Shown: piece after piece, positions 1 to 39,829 of the stretch
How positions within the stretch are numbered: position 1 is the stretch's first letter
Layout: every line of letters begins with the position of its first letter
The notes under the pieces: generated by a model
What the model was told of the DNA's origin: nothing
Database searches by the model: none
What the model saw: only the letters and a program-made list of their open reading frames with translations
Translations under genes and position numbers: made by a program
Assembly: GCA_902781305.1 (NCBI GenBank)
Contig: CACZIV010000001.1
Coordinates: forward strand, 44,247-108,246
Reading direction: 5' to 3'
Length of the DNA: 64,000 bases
Source: Pseudoselenomonas ruminantium
GTDB lineage: Bacteria > Bacillota > Negativicutes > Selenomonadales > Selenomonadaceae

Positions 1-179
1 ATTACGGGGAATATGAAGCGGTGGTAGCTATAGATGGGGAATTATTAGCAGGGGCTTTGCCGCGAAAACAACTGAAAATCGTGACGGGTTGGTTAGCCTA
101 TAATGAAGAAAAAGCATACAAGGCATGGAATCAGGCTGTTCGTGGTGAGCACTTTGATAAAATTCCACCGATGGAATGA
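1..179 (+). CDS. DUF4160 family protein, 3' part only
   Basis: The open frame enters from the left edge (codons in phase from base 3) and stops at TGA 177-179. About 58 residues are visible. The segment GALPRKQLKIVTGW, then a Trp-Asn-Gln and the ending KIPPME, matches the C-terminal half of DUF4160 proteins, which usually carry (R/A)xLPxR and end in I-P-P-L-like residues. DUF4160 proteins are commonly encoded next to DUF2442 proteins, as here, with a 9-base gap. The pair is often discussed as toxin-antitoxin-like, but the activity is unproven and I infer only the pairing. The 5' end is outside the window. Confidence 0.7.
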   Translation, partial: YGEYEAVVAIDGELLAGALPRKQLKIVTGWLAYNEEKAYKAWNQAVRGEHFDKIPPME

Positions 180-188
180 GGTGATGAT

Positions 189-482
189 ATGTATGTGAAA
201 GATGAAGTATGCTATGCTGGAAGTTTGGTAGAGAACATAAAGGTAACTGAGGCAAAGCCACTGCGTGGTGGCATGTTGTTGGTCACTTTTTCCACCGGAG
301 AACGAAGACTATTCGATACGACATTACTTAAAGGTGCTGCCTTTAAGCCATTGGCGGATGAAAGCGTGTTTAACAAGCCGGTTATATTTCATGGGGCAAT
401 TACGTGGAATAATGGCGAGATAGATATTGCACCAGAAAAAGTTTATATGGATAGTTATGTTTATGATGATGTGGCAGTATAA
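189..482 (+). CDS. DUF2442 family protein
   Basis: This is a 97-residue protein with a GAGGTG ribosome site 6 bases before ATG 189. It shows the DUF2442 pattern: a beta-rich start, then LLVTFSTGERRLFD (residues about 31-44), a pair of L/F-plus-P segments, and ITWNNGEIDIAPEKVY near residues 71-86, where the W-x-N-G-x-D-I-x-P-x-x-x-Y signature is typical. Family members are small partners of DUF4160 proteins and may act as a NadS/antitoxin-like partner; the molecular role is not established. It is probably translationally coupled to the upstream gene. The C-terminus ends in an acidic, Tyr-rich tail. Confidence 0.75.
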   Translation: MYVKDEVCYAGSLVENIKVTEAKPLRGGMLLVTFSTGERRLFDTTLLKGAAFKPLADESVFNKPVIFHGAITWNNGEIDIAPEKVYMDSYVYDDVAV

Positions 483-524
483 AATACTTTTTTACTGTTA
501 GTACATTCACCTGCTTAAATAGAT

Positions 525-606
525 GCCCGTGGGGCTGGCAATATTTTTCCTTCGCCATAGACAGGCTTGTCAAAAGCTGCGGAAAAATACTGCCAGCCCC
601 ACGGGC
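525..606. repeat. Hairpin repeat with conserved core, copy 1
   Basis: Two 26-nt arms (525-550 and 581-606) are complementary at 25 of 26 positions and enclose a 30-nt core (551-580) containing TAGACAGGCTTGTCAAA. The same core lies at 38196-38274 and 38324-38402 between arms of different sequence. The one arm mismatch (A opposite C as read on plus) would be a U-G pair in minus-strand RNA. The element sits between two convergent genes, so it could terminate transcription, but the large structured loop is unlike a simple terminator. Confidence 0.8.
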
Positions 607-641
607 TTAGTGTATTATATAGTAAATGTTCTTAGAAAGTT

Positions 642-2402
642 CTATTGCGGGTCCTGAGCTAGGATGGGGGCAAGTTCTGCTTCATCCGGCGTGATGTATA
701 GGGTTTTCTGATTGGTGAAGATGACGAAGCCGGGCTTGCTGCCGGAGGGCTTTTTGACGTAGCGGATTTCGGTGTAATCCACAGGCACTTTGGAAGAACC
801 CTGCGCCTTGCTGAAGTGGGCAGCTAGCTGGGCACATAATAGAATCGTGTCTTCGTTGGGCTCGATGCCGCCGTTGCGCAGGATGACGTGGGAACCGGGG
901 ATGTTCTGCGTATGGAACCAAGTGTCGTTGAAGCTGGCGGTTTTGCAGGTCAGTTTGTCGTTCTGGTAGTTGTTCTTGCCCACGAGAATTTGCGTACCGT
1001 CGGGAGCGATGAAGCGGAACGGGTGGGAAGGCTTGTCGTTGTTTTTGCGTTTGAGCTTTTCGCGCAGGTAGCCGCCTTCTACCAGTTCATTGTGGATTTC
1101 GGCGATTTCGCCAAGGCTGGATGAGGCCATTAGCGAGGCTTCAATGCTTTCTAGGTAGGTGATGGAAGCTTCGCATTCCTGCCGCTGAACCTGCAGGAGT
1201 TCCTGTGCGCGCTTTAGTTTGTCGTATTTTTTGTAACAAAGCTGCATATTCTGAATGATGGTATAGCGCTGGTCGAGGGGAATGGTGATTTCCTCGCCTG
1301 TTTCGCTGTAAATATTGGCGACCGTTATAGCAGCATCCTCATGGTCATTGTACTGGTACTGATAGGTCATCAGATTGTCGCCGCGGATTTTGTATTCTTC
1401 AGCATTTTCGGCGGCGGCAATTTCTTCATCGAGTTTGACCAGCTTGTTTTCTGCGCGGTGCAGTTCATTCTTGACGAGCTTCTTGAACCGGTCCTTGTCG
1501 GGCAGGACATAACTTCCCGCCAGGGCACTGGCCTTTTCCAGCATGGCGCTGATACTGTTAAAGTTCAGCGTAACAGCTTGCGGCAGATAGTGCAAAGGGA
1601 AGGAGGCCATGGCCAGCACTTTTTGGTGTTCGTCGAGAAGAATTACCGGGGCAGCCTGTTCCTGGCTTGCGGCATCGCGCACTTCCGTTAGGGCAGATTC
1701 GAGGGATTGATAGTCGGCCTCGTCCAAGGTGTTTAAACGTGTGCTGGGAGCAAGTCCCGCACTAAAGCAGACTTCTTTGGCTGAAACGGGGCCAAAACCC
1801 ATGCAGGTTGCCAGAAGTGCCTTGTCGATGCGTTCTTCGGGGGAGAGCTGGCGCAGTTTCGCGATAACGTCCGTCATGGGCGTGGTAAAGATATCCAGCT
1901 TGTCCTGTCCCGGAGGGAGTTCGTAAGTGTCGCTAGGCAGGACGGTGCGCACGCGGCTGCTGTTGGTGCCGATTTTGCGCAGGGCGTCAATGATTATGCC
2001 ATCCTGCACAAGAATCATATTGCTGTATTTGCCCATCAGTTCCATAATCAGGGTTTTGGTTACGATTTTGCCGCCCGCAGCAATGGAATCCACGTCCATC
2101 AACAGAATGCGGTCTAAACCGTGCTGTCGGATAGCGGCAATGCGGCCGGTTTCGAGCTGCTTGCGGAGCACCATGCAAAAGACTGGCGGCTCCGGAGGAT
2201 TTTCCAGATTCTTGGTCATCAGATGCGCCGCGGGATTCTGGGAATTGATGCAGATATGCAGCTGCTGGTTTTGTCCCGGCTGACGAATGGACAGGACGAT
2301 GGATTGTTTATTGGGCTGGGTTATTTTATCAATGCGGCCGCCAGCCAAGGTGTTGTTTAACTCGCGCACCAGCGGACGCATGGAAAAGCCGTCAAGACTC
2401 AT
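642..2402 (-). CDS. rqcH: RqcH/NFACT family ribosome quality-control protein (Rqc2 homolog, formerly FbpA-like)
   Basis: The protein has 586 residues. NFACT proteins of this type bind stalled 50S subunits carrying peptidyl-tRNA and recruit tRNA-Ala to add C-terminal alanine tails; older annotation calls them fibronectin-binding. Visible features are the NFACT-N domain (1 to about 260) with the Asp97-Arg98 pair known to be needed for tailing in RqcH, a coiled-coil middle rich in KLxxLDEEIAAAENAEEYK-like segments (about 300-430), and the C-terminal NFACT-R domain with WFHTQNIPGSHVILR (about 493-507). The start ATG at 2402 has AAGGAG eight bases upstream. It is monocistronic and divergent from the hydrogenase operon. 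Confidence 0.9.
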   Translation of the reverse strand: MSLDGFSMRPLVRELNNTLAGGRIDKITQPNKQSIVLSIRQPGQNQQLHICINSQNPAAHLMTKNLENPPEPPVFCMVLRKQLETGRIAAIRQHGLDRILLMDVDSIAAGGKIVTKTLIMELMGKYSNMILVQDGIIIDALRKIGTNSSRVRTVLPSDTYELPPGQDKLDIFTTPMTDVIAKLRQLSPEERIDKALLATCMGFGPVSAKEVCFSAGLAPSTRLNTLDEADYQSLESALTEVRDAASQEQAAPVILLDEHQKVLAMASFPLHYLPQAVTLNFNSISAMLEKASALAGSYVLPDKDRFKKLVKNELHRAENKLVKLDEEIAAAENAEEYKIRGDNLMTYQYQYNDHEDAAITVANIYSETGEEITIPLDQRYTIIQNMQLCYKKYDKLKRAQELLQVQRQECEASITYLESIEASLMASSSLGEIAEIHNELVEGGYLREKLKRKNNDKPSHPFRFIAPDGTQILVGKNNYQNDKLTCKTASFNDTWFHTQNIPGSHVILRNGGIEPNEDTILLCAQLAAHFSKAQGSSKVPVDYTEIRYVKKPSGSKPGFVIFTNQKTLYITPDEAELAPILAQDPQ

Positions 2403-35211: not shown

Positions 35212-35257
35212 TATAATATTGTATTGAGTGATAATAAATTGCAGTAGGAGTGATTTT

Positions 35258-38173
35258 GTGAAGATAAATGACCATATTCATGGATTTAAAGTAATAAATC
35301 GTAGTGAAAGCAAGGAGACCAGCTCCATTGCCTGGACTTTTGAGCATGAAAAGAGCGGTGCCCGTCTTTTCTTCTTGCAGAATGATGATGATAACAAGGT
35401 GTTTTCCATCAGCTTCCGTACGCCGCCTTTTGACGATACCGGTGTAGCCCATATTGTGGAACATTCCACGCTCTGCGGCAGCCGCAAGTATCCCTTGAAG
35501 GAGCCGTTTGTGGAACTGGTGAAAGGTTCCTTAAATACATTCCTCAATGCCATGACCTATCCCGATAAGACCATGTATCCTGTGGCGAGCCGCAACGACA
35601 AGGACTTCCAGAATCTTATGGATGTATATCTTGATGCGGTATTCTATCCGGCTATGCTGGAAAATCCGCAGATTCTGATGCAGGAAGGCTGGCATTATGA
35701 GATTGACAGCGCCGATGCGCCGCTGACGTATAGTGGTGTAGTTTATAATGAAATGAAGGGTGCGCTTTCGGCTCCGGATGATTTACTCGAAAGCCGTATT
35801 ATGGCTGCACTATATCCGGATACGACCTATGGCTATGAATCCGGCGGTGACCCCGAGGCCATTCCGCAGCTCACTTATGAAATGTTCAAGAACTTCCATC
35901 AGCGGTACTATCATCCGAGCAACAGCTATATCTATCTCTACGGCGATATGGATATTGAAGAAAAGTTAGCTTATTTGGACAAGGAATATCTGTCGGCTTT
36001 TGACCGTATCGCCATTGATTCTCAGATTGAAAAGCAGACGGTTTTTACCGGCTTGCAGCGTCAGGCGTTGACGTATCCGGCCAGCCCGGATGAGGATACA
36101 GCGGAAAAGACCTTCCTGTCCTTGAACTGGGTAACGGGCGAGTCCTTGAATCCCGTGGATATGATGGGCTTGGAAATCCTGGAACATGCCCTTTTGCGGA
36201 CGCCGGCGGCTCCTTTGCGCAAAGCCTTGATTGATGCACAGCTGGGCAAGGATGTGGATTCGTCCTTTGAAGATGATATGTTGCAGCCGTTCTTCAGCAT
36301 TATCATCAGCAATTCGGAAAAAGACCGTGTGGACAAGTTCTATGCAATTGTGCAGGAAACTTTGCAGCAGTTAGCGGATAAGGGCATTGACCGCACCTTG
36401 TTGGAAGCATCCATCAACCTGCTCGAATTCCGCCTGCGCGAATCGGATTTTGGCTCTGCACCGAAAGGTCTTATCTATGGCATTCGCGTGATGAAGACCT
36501 GGCTCTACGACGGCCAGCCGGAAACGTGCCTGGCTTATGAGCCGCTGATTAAGGCGATGAAAGATGGCTTGAATAATGGCTATTTTGAAGAACTGATTCG
36601 CCGCTACTTCCTGGACAATAAGCATGCTGCACTGATTACGATGGAACCCTCCAAGACCATGGGCGCTGAACGCGAAAAGGCGCAGGCCGAGGCCCTGGCT
36701 GCCTGCAAGGCTAAGCTGAGTGAAACGGAAATACAGCAGCTTATTGCCGACAATAAGGCGCTGAAAGAACGCCAGCAGAGCGAAGATACGGAAGAAGCCT
36801 TAAAGACGATTCCACTCTTAAAACTTAGCGATATCCGCCGCAAGGCTTATGACCTGCCGTTAGAGGAAAAGGATTTGGCGGGAACAAAAGTGTTGTTCAG
36901 CGATGTGGAAACCAGCGGCATTACCTATCTGAGTCTGCTATTTGATGCGCAGATGGTGCCGCAGGAAGATATTCCCTATGCGTTCCTTTTGAGTGAACTT
37001 ATCGGCAATGTGGATACGGAAACGAGCACCTATGGCGAACTGGCCAACCGCAAGAACCTGCATACTGGCGGCATTTCCTATGATATCGTGACCTACACGA
37101 AGAAAAATGAGCCGGATTCCTCAACGCCGAAGTTCAAGGTCAAGGCCAAGGTCTTGCGGGAAAAACTGCCGCAGCTGTTGGAACTCTTGCAGGAAATCCT
37201 CATGACCAGCAAGTTCAGCGATGAAAAGCGTATGCGGGAACTCTTGGAACAGGAACAGGCTACGATTGAACTCAATCTGCAGCGCAGTGCTCATCAGGTG
37301 GTCAGCGCCCGTCTGGCGGGGTATCTTATGCCGTCCGGCCGTTATGCCGATGAAGGAGGCCTGCCGTTCTATCCCTTTATCAAAGGTTTATTGGCAGATT
37401 TCCCGGCGAACCTGCCCGCTATCAGTGCCAAACTCAGCGAACTGGCGAAGGAAATCTTTAACCAGCACAATCTGATTGTCAGCGTTACGGATAGAGATAA
37501 GTTCTATGACGATTTTGCCGGCGAGTTTGGTAAATTCCAGGAAAAACTGGGCAAGGAAATCTATCCTGCACAGGAATATCATTGGGATTTACAGGCTCGC
37601 AATGAAGGTCTGACTTCTTCCAGCCGTGTGCAGTATGTGGGCAAAGGTGCCAACTTCCTGAAGCTTGGCTATGAGTTCACGGGCACCATGCACGTTTTGG
37701 AAACCATTCTGCGCTATGACTACTTCTGGACGAAAATTCGCGTCCAGGGCGGTGCCTATGGTGCATTCACCAGCTTTAACCGCAACGGCATGATGTATTT
37801 TGGTTCCTATCGTGACCCGAACCTTACGGAAACCTTGGATGTGTTCGATGGCACGGCGGATTATCTGGCAGGCTTTGACGCATCGGAGCGTGAGATGGAT
37901 AAGTACATCATCGGCACGATGAGCAATATTGATACGCCGCTGACACCGCAGATGAAGGGCAGTGCGGCTGCTACCTGCTGGCTGCGGGGGATAACTCTGG
38001 AGGACCGTCAGCAGGCAAGAGATGAAATTCTCGATACCCGTCAGACGGATGTGCAGAAGTTGGCGCCGCTGGTCAAGGCCTGCATGGAGGAGAATGTGCT
38101 CTGCGTGTTCGGTGGACAGGAGAAGATTAACGAACATAAAGAGGTGTTTGGGGAGATTCATCCGGCACTTTAA
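35258..38173 (+). CDS. M16C-family zinc metallopeptidase (presequence-protease/insulinase type)
   Basis: The 971-residue protein starts at GTG 35258 (TAGGAG seven bases upstream). It has two M16 halves. The inverted zinc motif H-x-x-E-H is in VAHIVEHSTLCGSRKYP (about 64-80), followed by PFVELVKGSLNTFLNAMTYPDKTMYPVASRN, typical of the M16C PreP/Cym1 group. The second half (about 540-971) is non-catalytic and closes the chamber; KIRVQGGAYGAF (about 825-836) holds the R/Y substrate residues. No signal peptide, so it probably degrades peptides in the cytoplasm. Two hairpin repeats follow directly. Confidence 0.9.
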   Translation: MKINDHIHGFKVINRSESKETSSIAWTFEHEKSGARLFFLQNDDDNKVFSISFRTPPFDDTGVAHIVEHSTLCGSRKYPLKEPFVELVKGSLNTFLNAMTYPDKTMYPVASRNDKDFQNLMDVYLDAVFYPAMLENPQILMQEGWHYEIDSADAPLTYSGVVYNEMKGALSAPDDLLESRIMAALYPDTTYGYESGGDPEAIPQLTYEMFKNFHQRYYHPSNSYIYLYGDMDIEEKLAYLDKEYLSAFDRIAIDSQIEKQTVFTGLQRQALTYPASPDEDTAEKTFLSLNWVTGESLNPVDMMGLEILEHALLRTPAAPLRKALIDAQLGKDVDSSFEDDMLQPFFSIIISNSEKDRVDKFYAIVQETLQQLADKGIDRTLLEASINLLEFRLRESDFGSAPKGLIYGIRVMKTWLYDGQPETCLAYEPLIKAMKDGLNNGYFEELIRRYFLDNKHAALITMEPSKTMGAEREKAQAEALAACKAKLSETEIQQLIADNKALKERQQSEDTEEALKTIPLLKLSDIRRKAYDLPLEEKDLAGTKVLFSDVETSGITYLSLLFDAQMVPQEDIPYAFLLSELIGNVDTETSTYGELANRKNLHTGGISYDIVTYTKKNEPDSSTPKFKVKAKVLREKLPQLLELLQEILMTSKFSDEKRMRELLEQEQATIELNLQRSAHQVVSARLAGYLMPSGRYADEGGLPFYPFIKGLLADFPANLPAISAKLSELAKEIFNQHNLIVSVTDRDKFYDDFAGEFGKFQEKLGKEIYPAQEYHWDLQARNEGLTSSSRVQYVGKGANFLKLGYEFTGTMHVLETILRYDYFWTKIRVQGGAYGAFTSFNRNGMMYFGSYRDPNLTETLDVFDGTADYLAGFDASEREMDKYIIGTMSNIDTPLTPQMKGSAAATCWLRGITLEDRQQARDEILDTRQTDVQKLAPLVKACMEENVLCVFGGQEKINEHKEVFGEIHPAL

Positions 38174-38195
38174 GTTTACATCTGCATGACAAGAC

Positions 38196-38274
38196 GCCCG
38201 CCGGCTGATAACACTTTTCCTCTGCTTAGACAGGCTTGTCAAACGCGGCGGAAAAGCATTATCAGCCGGCGGGC
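38196..38274. repeat. Hairpin repeat with conserved core, copy 2
   Basis: Arms 38196-38220 and 38250-38274 are complementary at 23 of 25 positions; both mismatches (C-A and A-C on plus) are G-U pairs on minus. The 29-nt core (38221-38249) has TAGACAGGCTTGTCAAA. TGTTTT follows on plus. Confidence 0.85.
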
Positions 38275-38323
38275 TGTTTTCGTGGTTTTATACGTTTGCG
38301 GATAAAAAAAGATATGCAAAGGC

Positions 38324-38402
38324 GCGCGGGAACAGATAATATTTTTTCTACGCTTAGACAGGCTTGTCAAACGCTGCGAAAAAACATTATCTGCTCCCGC
38401 GC
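38324..38402. repeat. Hairpin repeat with conserved core, copy 3
   Basis: Arms 38324-38348 and 38378-38402 pair at 23 of 25 positions; both mismatches are A-C on plus and U-G on minus. The 29-nt core (38349-38377) is nearly identical to copy 2. Copies 2 and 3 are direct repeats 49 bases apart, in the same orientation as copy 1. Together they fill the 381-base gap between the M16 gene and the transpeptidase promoter. Confidence 0.85.
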
Positions 38403-38467
38403 TTAGTTTTTGATTAAGCAGGAACGTCCTTTTATCGGTGTCGTTGTGATTTTATCTTAGATAGTTG

Positions 38468-38496
38468 TTGAAAAAAGTATTTTTAGATGGTAGGAT
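38468..38496 (+). promoter_or_regulatory. Candidate promoter of the L,D-transpeptidase gene
   Basis: TTGAAA (38468-38473), 17 bases, TAGGAT (38491-38496). The transcript leader carries the small inverted motif at 38501-38528. Confidence 0.55.
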
Positions 38497-38554: not shown

Positions 38555-39829
38555 ATGCTCAAGAATATTTGTGCTGGTCTGATGAGTGCTGCTTTGCTTA
38601 CAGGCGGTCTGACTACTTATGTGGGGGCGGAGCCTGTGCATGTGCCGACTTTGGCAGATATGTCGGTGCAGGTGAAGGAACCGACTGTGCAGGAACAGCG
38701 GCTGGCTCAGGAAACGGGCAAGGCTGTAGCTTCTGCGCCGGTGGCACCTGTGGCAGAAAGTCAGCCGGCAGCGGCAACGACAGCAGCTGCTGAGGTGAAG
38801 AAAGCAGAACCTGCAGCGGCTGAACCGGAGAAGAAGTCTTTGGAAAAGAAGATTTCCATTAATCTGGCAGCGCGTTCGTTAGCCCTGTTTGAAGGTACGG
38901 AAAAGATTCGTCTGTATCCCATTGGCCCTGGTACGCCGTATACGCCGACTCCGGTGGGGTATTACAAGATTCAGTCCAAGGATGTAAATCCGTCCTGGAC
39001 CAGTCCGTCTACGGGGAAGACGATTCCCTCTGGACCGGATTGTCCGCTGGGCTATCGCTGGATGCAGATTCAGGGCAATTACGGCATTCATGGCACCAAT
39101 AATCCGGATTCCATTGGCCATTATGTGTCCAACGGCTGCATCCGCATGTATGAAAAAGATGTAGAAGCATTATTTGATTTGGTCAAAATCGGTACGCCGG
39201 TAGAAATCACCTACAACCGCGTTGTGGTTGAGAAGCTGGCAGATAACACGGTGGTTTATTACATTTATCCGGATGGTTATGGCTGGCAGAATCTGTCGGT
39301 AGACGATGTCAATAAATGGCTGGCTGGTTATGGCGTAGCCAATTTCGTCAGCAATGAGGAAATTGAAAAGAAAATCAGTGCCTCCGATGGTGAACCCACT
39401 TATGTAGCCAAGGTTTATCCGCTATATGTCAATGGCGAGAAGATGAAAAACAAGGCTGTAGAGCAGAATGGGGTAATGTATCTGCCGGCAATCGATTTGG
39501 CTGATGCTGTCCATGTGGATTTGGGCTGGAATGATAAGACGCAGAAACTCATCAGCACGTTAGGTGCCGCTGACGGTGTGGATAAGAAGGATGTTCTTTA
39601 CTGCAAACTGGTTGATGCCAAGACCTTGTTTAAGCTGGATGGTGCTGTGGAAAAGAACAACTTTGTCATGAAGTTTGTTCCGGACGAGAAAAAGTCCAAT
39701 CTGGACAGCCGAGAGGAAAAGGTTGATGCCACGCAGAAAATTGACCACAAGGTTGTGAGTGTGGCACAGCAGGAGATTGGACAGGTAAAAAACGAAAAAG
39801 CCAGCAATAAGGATAAGACGAAGAAATAA
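38555..39829 (+). CDS. L,D-transpeptidase (YkuD) with C-terminal extension
   Basis: The 424-residue exported protein has a signal peptide (1 to about 26), a Pro/Ala-rich linker (about 35-95) and a YkuD domain (about 97-225) with IHGTNNPDSIGHYVSNGCIRM. The catalytic His/Ser/Cys195/Arg are present. It forms 3-3 peptidoglycan cross-links or anchors proteins to the wall. The C-terminal region (about 285-365, VYPLYVNGEKMKNKAVEQNG and on) resembles a copper-amine-oxidase-N-like wall/surface domain, and the last 60 residues are Lys-rich and charged. A gene-specific promoter and two hairpin repeats precede it. Confidence 0.88.
   Translation: MLKNICAGLMSAALLTGGLTTYVGAEPVHVPTLADMSVQVKEPTVQEQRLAQETGKAVASAPVAPVAESQPAAATTAAAEVKKAEPAAAEPEKKSLEKKISINLAARSLALFEGTEKIRLYPIGPGTPYTPTPVGYYKIQSKDVNPSWTSPSTGKTIPSGPDCPLGYRWMQIQGNYGIHGTNNPDSIGHYVSNGCIRMYEKDVEALFDLVKIGTPVEITYNRVVVEKLADNTVVYYIYPDGYGWQNLSVDDVNKWLAGYGVANFVSNEEIEKKISASDGEPTYVAKVYPLYVNGEKMKNKAVEQNGVMYLPAIDLADAVHVDLGWNDKTQKLISTLGAADGVDKKDVLYCKLVDAKTLFKLDGAVEKNNFVMKFVPDEKKSNLDSREEKVDATQKIDHKVVSVAQQEIGQVKNEKASNKDKTKK

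Follow-up and report, generated by a model that had tools for sequence, protein, structure and literature searches.

The window, the whole 64,000-nucleotide stretch of Pseudoselenomonas ruminantium DNA that was analyzed, contains three long hairpins (Table 1). They lie where a sequence-only reading of the same DNA had placed them, with stems of 26, 25, and 25 positions, loops of 29–30 nt, and the shared core TAGACAGGCTTGTCAAA. The core of element 2 starts 54 nt past the end of the PreP-type gene, and a promoter-like site (38468–38496) sits behind the array formed by elements 2 and 3. At ≤3 mismatches the window holds three occurrences of the 17-base core, compared with 0.09 expected. A covariance model built from 49 copies of the same genome, the three window elements included, recovered these three elements when run over both strands of the window, and the next match reached only E = 3.7. 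RNA fold z-scores for the window elements range from −5.7 to −10.5. No match to Rfam in the window reached the gathering threshold; below threshold there was one CopA-like match in four loci, and at relaxed E-values element 1 gave 14 matches, mostly to microRNA precursors. Window positions 1–558 (L001:709-1517) also carry a gene pair (88 aa plus the 97-aa DUF2442 protein) that lies between two elements of the source genome. Core spacing at this locus is equal in the relative G146, and at locus L118 two such elements lie 148 bp apart.

Table 1. Hairpin elements and neighboring genes, in window coordinates
Feature	Position	Strand	Model score
DUF2442 gene before element 1, which is in sense to it	189..482	+	
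Element 1, left arm of outer stem	525..550	+	
Element 1, internal loop, 5' side	551..559	+	
Element 1, apical hairpin GACA-GGCT-TGTC	560..571	+	
Element 1, internal loop, 3' side	572..580	+	
Element 1, right arm of outer stem	581..606	+	
Element 1, covariance model match	503-629		119 bits
NFACT family gene after element 1, convergent	642..2402	-	
Peptidase M16 gene, PreP type, before elements 2 and 3	35228..38173	+	
Element 2, left arm	38196..38220	+	
Element 2, internal loop and apical hairpin (38229-38240)	38221..38249	+	
Element 2, right arm	38250..38274	+	
Element 2, covariance model match	38174-38297		118 bits
Element 3, left arm (second array unit)	38324..38348	+	
Element 3, internal loop and apical hairpin (38357-38368)	38349..38377	+	
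Element 3, right arm	38378..38402	+	
Element 3, covariance model match	38302-38425		114 bits
YkuD L,D-transpeptidase gene, next after elements 2 and 3	38555..39829	+	

The three hairpins belong to a dispersed palindromic family, one of the two origins that the sequence-only reading had suggested. The source genome, which is 88.6% complete, holds 135 core matches at ≤2 mismatches compared with 1 for a backwards control, and G146 holds 119 exact cores. The exact count was used for G146 because its figure of 189 at ≤2 mismatches is inflated by the R in the pattern, which lets palindromic AAGC copies match on the other strand too. Across the bacterial family, the exact core TAGACARGCTTGTCAAA was found in 9 of 189 genomes, all of them in one of 30 genera (Selenomonas ruminantium and its kin); 22 genomes of that genus were examined, giving 9 carriers and 13 non-carriers. 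Exact core counts in the carriers are 112 (the source genome), 119, 94, 88, 86, 39, 12, 11, and 3. A named sequence collection contained at least 98 stretches with the core; among the 80 listed, all are Selenomonas ruminantium records apart from 11 lone matches in unrelated organisms, where the flanking sequences form no paired arms. No match to the family was present among PLSDB plasmids, a longer core gave no exact match in viral contigs, and our literature search found no paper on this repeat in Selenomonas.

For comparison between copies, 324 distinct copies with good arms were collected from several genomes, after 16 of 340 had been dropped as chimeric, half, or decayed. In each, the arms of the outer stem vary but pair, the internal loop holds a coupled pair, and a hairpin forms the apex. 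Because the core served to locate the copies, its uniformity is in part a product of the search. The scripts took the R of the core pattern literally, which made a limit of ≤2 mismatches equal to one real mismatch and ≤3 equal to two; one scan at ≤3 counted part of the copies twice, once per strand, and supplied examples only, and such duplicates were removed before arrays were compared between genomes. The coupled internal-loop pair is G-C in 209 copies, A-T in 16, and G-T in 1 (98 of the 324 were not scored). Of the 24 consensus stem pairs, 19 are changed on both sides among 49 copies of the source genome; covariation of the arms, which had been read from three copies, is therefore upheld at family scale, with pairing kept while arm sequence varies freely. 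Similarity between stems is higher near the core and at the foot than in the middle. Single copies in sister species match the source-genome model at E = 1e-7 to 1e-10, with variant cores that were absent from training. They keep the internal loop TTCCGCTNA / AAACGCTNC and differ in the apical hairpin, although the search expression demands the internal loop and is thus informative for apical variety only. In 25 elements from 30 loci the apical hairpins were GACAAGCTTGTC (9), GACAGGCTTGTC (8), GACGCTTACGCGCC (4), and GAAGCTGCGCTTC (4).

Genomic context was assessed in 40 stretches (781 kb) from two genomes, with genes called by a simple codon-hexamer gene finder. Of 114 cores, 111 fall within 45 gaps between genes and 2 inside weakly called short ORFs. 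Elements occupy 15 of 41 convergent gaps, 29 of 314 co-directional gaps, and 1 of 48 divergent gaps. The first element of a co-directional gap is in the sense orientation in 28 of 29 cases (binomial p ~1e-7), 27 of which are class A, and its core lies 51–78 nt past the stop codon in 22 of the 29, with one more at 38. An earlier, biased set of loci, in which 74 of 91 arrays were scored, gave 45 co-directional sense, 25 convergent, 4 co-directional antisense, and 0 divergent placements. Another canonical terminator is present in 8 of 43 gaps with elements compared with 81 of 163 gaps without (p = 0.0002, gaps ≥100 nt), a comparison in which the elements were masked, which itself removes sequence able to hold a terminator. 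The stem end was recognized in 247 of the 324 copies, and 59% of these have at least four T in the eight positions behind it, compared with 25% of 815 random intergenic 8-mers.

These data lead us to lean toward the view that the dispersed family consists of long terminator-type 3' hairpins and that the upstream gene's mRNA corresponds to the plus strand. Judged from sequence, the hairpins behind genes in some rumen Selenomonas probably act as transcription terminators. Like intrinsic (Rho-independent) terminators, they are GC-rich hairpins behind a stop codon, with a tail that is richer in T than random DNA but often weak, and older single copies of the family read as bidirectional terminators; unlike them, they have a core common to more than 100 loci, a long stem, and a spread within one clade. 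The suggestion that these are not simple terminators fails in part: much of the evidence speaks for terminators that have multiplied. Several observations count against the terminator reading. Co-directional and divergent gaps do not differ significantly when compared alone (p = 0.15), many class A copies have only three to four T of eight behind the stem, class B at the far end of arrays is antisense, and one composite lies between divergent genes. A simple terminator scan of the three window copies returned one terminator-like site, in the right arm of element 2. In addition, a terminator has no need of a conserved loop or a fixed mismatch.

That mismatch is strand specific. All five arm mismatches in the three window copies are A-C on the plus strand and G-T on the minus strand, as first described, but across the family the rule applies only to the inner stem. 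At stem pairs 7–11 of the 324 copies there are 500 A-C and 16 G-T mismatches, and 482 of the 500 have A on the left and C on the right; at least one left-A/right-C mismatch at pairs 6–11 is present in 294 of the 324. At pairs 12–25, the counts are 107 A-C and 95 G-T, the even split that the sequence-only reading had named as evidence against its own proposal. The minus strand gives the better RNA fold in 313 of 324 copies, by a mean of 9.4 kcal/mol, and the better DNA fold in 304, differences to which the fixed mismatches and the internal loop may both contribute. Folded with their flanks, element 1 (−64.3 vs −57.3 kcal/mol) and element 3 (−51.3 vs −42.6 kcal/mol) are more stable as minus-strand RNA, but element 2 is more stable as plus-strand RNA (−61.1 vs −57.8 kcal/mol).

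A selected RNA made from the minus strand, the first interpretation offered for these hairpins, would benefit from this asymmetry in folding and from the appearance of the fixed inner A-C as G-U on the minus strand. The core also reads TTGACA on that strand, a possible promoter; a −10-like hexamer matching at least four of six positions lies 16–18 nt from it in 104 of 324 copies, a count without a shuffled control, and a minus-strand promoter-like site is predicted in element 3 (window 38370–38341). We nevertheless consider such an RNA very improbable: in 28 of the 29 co-directional gaps it is the plus strand that is sense to the gene before the elements, and the outer-stem mismatches are even.

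Orthologous elements were compared to follow the covariation. From 119 orthologous pairs, 37 were identical, 6 chimeric, and 4 not alignable, leaving 72 for comparison. Their 1,825 stem pairs show 95 one-sided and 72 two-sided changes, compared with 7.8 two-sided changes expected if the sides were independent; the comparisons share elements and hence are not independent of one another. Of the double changes, 66 of 72 run from one Watson-Crick pair to another, so the compensatory changes looked for at orthologous positions do exist. Stepwise change via wobble pairs explains them poorly. Transversions or mixed changes make up 36 of the 72 doubles but only 16 of the 95 singles, many doubles are clustered (21 of the 72 elements have at least two), and in several pairs one version is nearer to a copy elsewhere than to its own orthologue. 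Because half of the doubles are transversions or mixed and many are clustered, the covariation is weak as evidence of selection. Loop letters differ between orthologues at 109 of 1,944 positions, a count that includes five flanking letters on each side and the A/G site; this is about the stem rate (6.5% per side) and counts against the terminator reading.

The double changes could be explained by template switching inside the palindrome or by conversion from copies elsewhere, and template switching is able to fix stems in one step (PMC8794818). Taken to its limit, this would make the pairing functionless, with the arms matched by these processes alone. The 72 doubles alongside 95 singles, where 7.8 doubles were expected, their transversions, and their clustering would all agree with such an origin, as would the one-step fixing of stems (PMC8794818). 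The six closest comparisons (flanks ≥97%), on the other hand, show 4 changes on one side and none on both sides among 158 pairs, and functionless pairing leaves the position, the orientation, the substitution for other terminators, and the retained inner mismatch unexplained. We regard it as improbable. Covariation among hairpin copies alone is in any case no proof of a functional RNA.

Many copies are grouped in arrays. Class B is present in 21 of 45 arrays, and in 20 of these 21 a single B stands at one end, inverted relative to every A (A+...A+B-). Array entries in the source genome and G146 were counted from both sides, and 35 of the 50 have flanks in synteny. The number of copies is equal in 14 of these and different in 18, and 3 were flagged absent; one absence was accepted, and in the other two the array adjoins the mapped place by coordinates. 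The accepted case, a clean presence/absence difference, concerns an A+A+B- composite that has GAATGT at each end; its empty counterpart does not itself read GAATGT. ERIC, other long intergenic palindromes, and MITEs are ~100–130 bp, intergenic, and repeated, like the present family, which differs in that its arms are free in sequence and terminal repeats are not defined. The GAATGT composite is the one candidate for a target-site duplication of the MITE type, and its empty site reads differently. Half elements without the left arm up to the internal loop occur at L052:2395-2484, L061:1517-1607, L054:6992, and L162:1634, partly in tandem at a spacing of ~73–74 bp. In copies at L069:2916, L117:2310, and L098:1665, the two arms are mutually mismatched and the change is located at the core; orthologues of the L069 copy suggest recombination between copies.

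The arrays resemble REP/BIME sequences: both are high-copy extragenic palindromes downstream of genes, both form mosaics with opposite orientations, and both (for E. coli REPs) have a conserved stem mismatch. The elements are larger and have a conserved internal loop, with arms of ~25 bp and a loop of ~30 nt (~80 bp in all), whereas REPs are 20–40 bp (PMC3733652). GTAG-type REPs differ further in that the repeat flanks its cognate Y1 (TnpA-REP) gene; no Y1 gene adjoins the present elements at any of 30 Y1 loci. GTAG at the element foot is not above shuffled, and GACG (CGTC on the minus strand) is at the left foot of 138 of 324 copies compared with 27 in shuffled sequence, with GGCG about as common there.

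A family of this kind might be a mobile palindrome in the manner of REP/BIME, in which an enzyme recognizes the folded single-stranded DNA by its core, internal loop, and mismatch and inserts the element; placement behind genes would then reflect the purging of harmful insertions, with no role in termination. The range of exact core counts among related species (3 to 119), the inverted single B that ends 20 of 21 B-holding arrays, the change of array size in 18 of 35 syntenic entries, and the clean composite insertion with GAATGT at both ends are all consistent with mobility. The strand asymmetry (313/324) is like the E. coli REP stem mismatch, which TnpA-REP needs (PMC8266576). This likeness of the fixed mismatch is our main reason for keeping a role at the DNA level open. 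Placement also agrees: most known REPs likewise follow genes and occupy convergent or co-directional gaps (PMC3733652), so position alone does not show termination. CGTC-tagged REPs, too, have no known transposase (PMC3733652). We still judge a purely mobile palindrome rather unlikely. Y1 transposase does not track the copies: in the genus, 6 of the 9 carriers have a match and so do 7 of the 13 non-carriers, and there is none in G147, G155, or G156 despite 11, 88, and 12 exact cores; the core is present at 0 of 30 Y1 loci (34 Y1 matches). The empty site lacks GAATGT, and a single clean insertion was found. As a mobilizer, RAYT/Y1 is not supported, since Y1 neither tracks copies nor adjoins cores. 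As for an autonomous element lying between copies, ORFs that separate neighboring arrays at three loci seemed ordinary when read by eye.

Orthologous gene ends were also compared across relatives by eye. Behind comF, G147 has the core, G154 an ordinary terminator whose arms are nearly the same, and G159 another insert. The lptA end has an ordinary terminator in G159, a variant core in G144 and G149, and the core in G147, G155, G146, G153, and G000; the copy is missing in G148, G152, and G156, which counts against the terminator reading. Elements follow clpB in G000, G146, G152, G153, G154, and G155, and other hairpins do so in G147, G156, G148, and G144. At the NFACT and PreP ends, where one or more genomes are cut by contig ends, the expanded clade has elements and other genomes have other hairpins or none. 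Overall, several gene ends have ordinary hairpins in relatives, two of them with arms similar to those of the elements, which counts in favor of the terminator reading.

The sequences are best read as long hairpins of the terminator type that share a conserved internal loop and have multiplied into mosaics resembling REP/BIME. The outer stem, with the T-rich DNA behind it, would stop RNA polymerase or fix the 3' end of the mRNA; pairing would be kept and sequence left free because the stem serves that purpose. The internal loop, inner stem, and fixed A-C mismatch may have been kept through recognition by some factor, either a protein acting on RNA or an enzyme that uses single-stranded DNA to spread the element. 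The older copies were probably bidirectional terminators that stood singly (AAAAGCCCGG...CCGGGCTTTT); they share the internal loop but vary in the apical hairpin. A derived form, class A, accompanied by an inverted class B at the end of arrays, would then have multiplied within the S. ruminantium group and taken over gene ends, and its arrays may have grown and shrunk by tandem gain and loss. More tentatively, the multiplying unit could itself be a mobile terminator, spread on single-stranded DNA by an enzyme other than Y1, with a fixed strand-specific mismatch, a conserved internal loop, and arms free except for pairing, which has taken a sizeable share of the gene 3' ends of one clade; we hold this fuller version to be possible but doubtful. 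Should the terminator reading be correct, many transcription ends of a rumen bacterium have been rewritten by a repeat family, and multiplying terminators can replace native ones. Different relatives have, at the same gene ends, an ordinary terminator, one with a variant core, one copy of the element, or a mosaic array, a range of states through which both the turnover of terminators and the question whether selection or template switching causes the covariation become testable.

Other hairpins were seen in the same genus. Behind the NFACT gene at L246 (G144) lies a different long hairpin with the loop GATTTACACGCTCGCGCGTA, and similar loops occur in one to two copies each in G146, G147, G153, and G156. 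A second palindromic family, with the core AAACGCGCTTCGCTTGAACG, reaches 61 matches in a single genome, and its copies often form inverted pairs with a spacing of ~273 or 410 bp (for example at loci L252, L253, L255, L256, and L355–L357). It is present in 10 of the 22 genomes of the genus: G143, G150, G151, G157, G158, G160–G163, and G153, the last of which, with one match, is the only one that also carries the present family.
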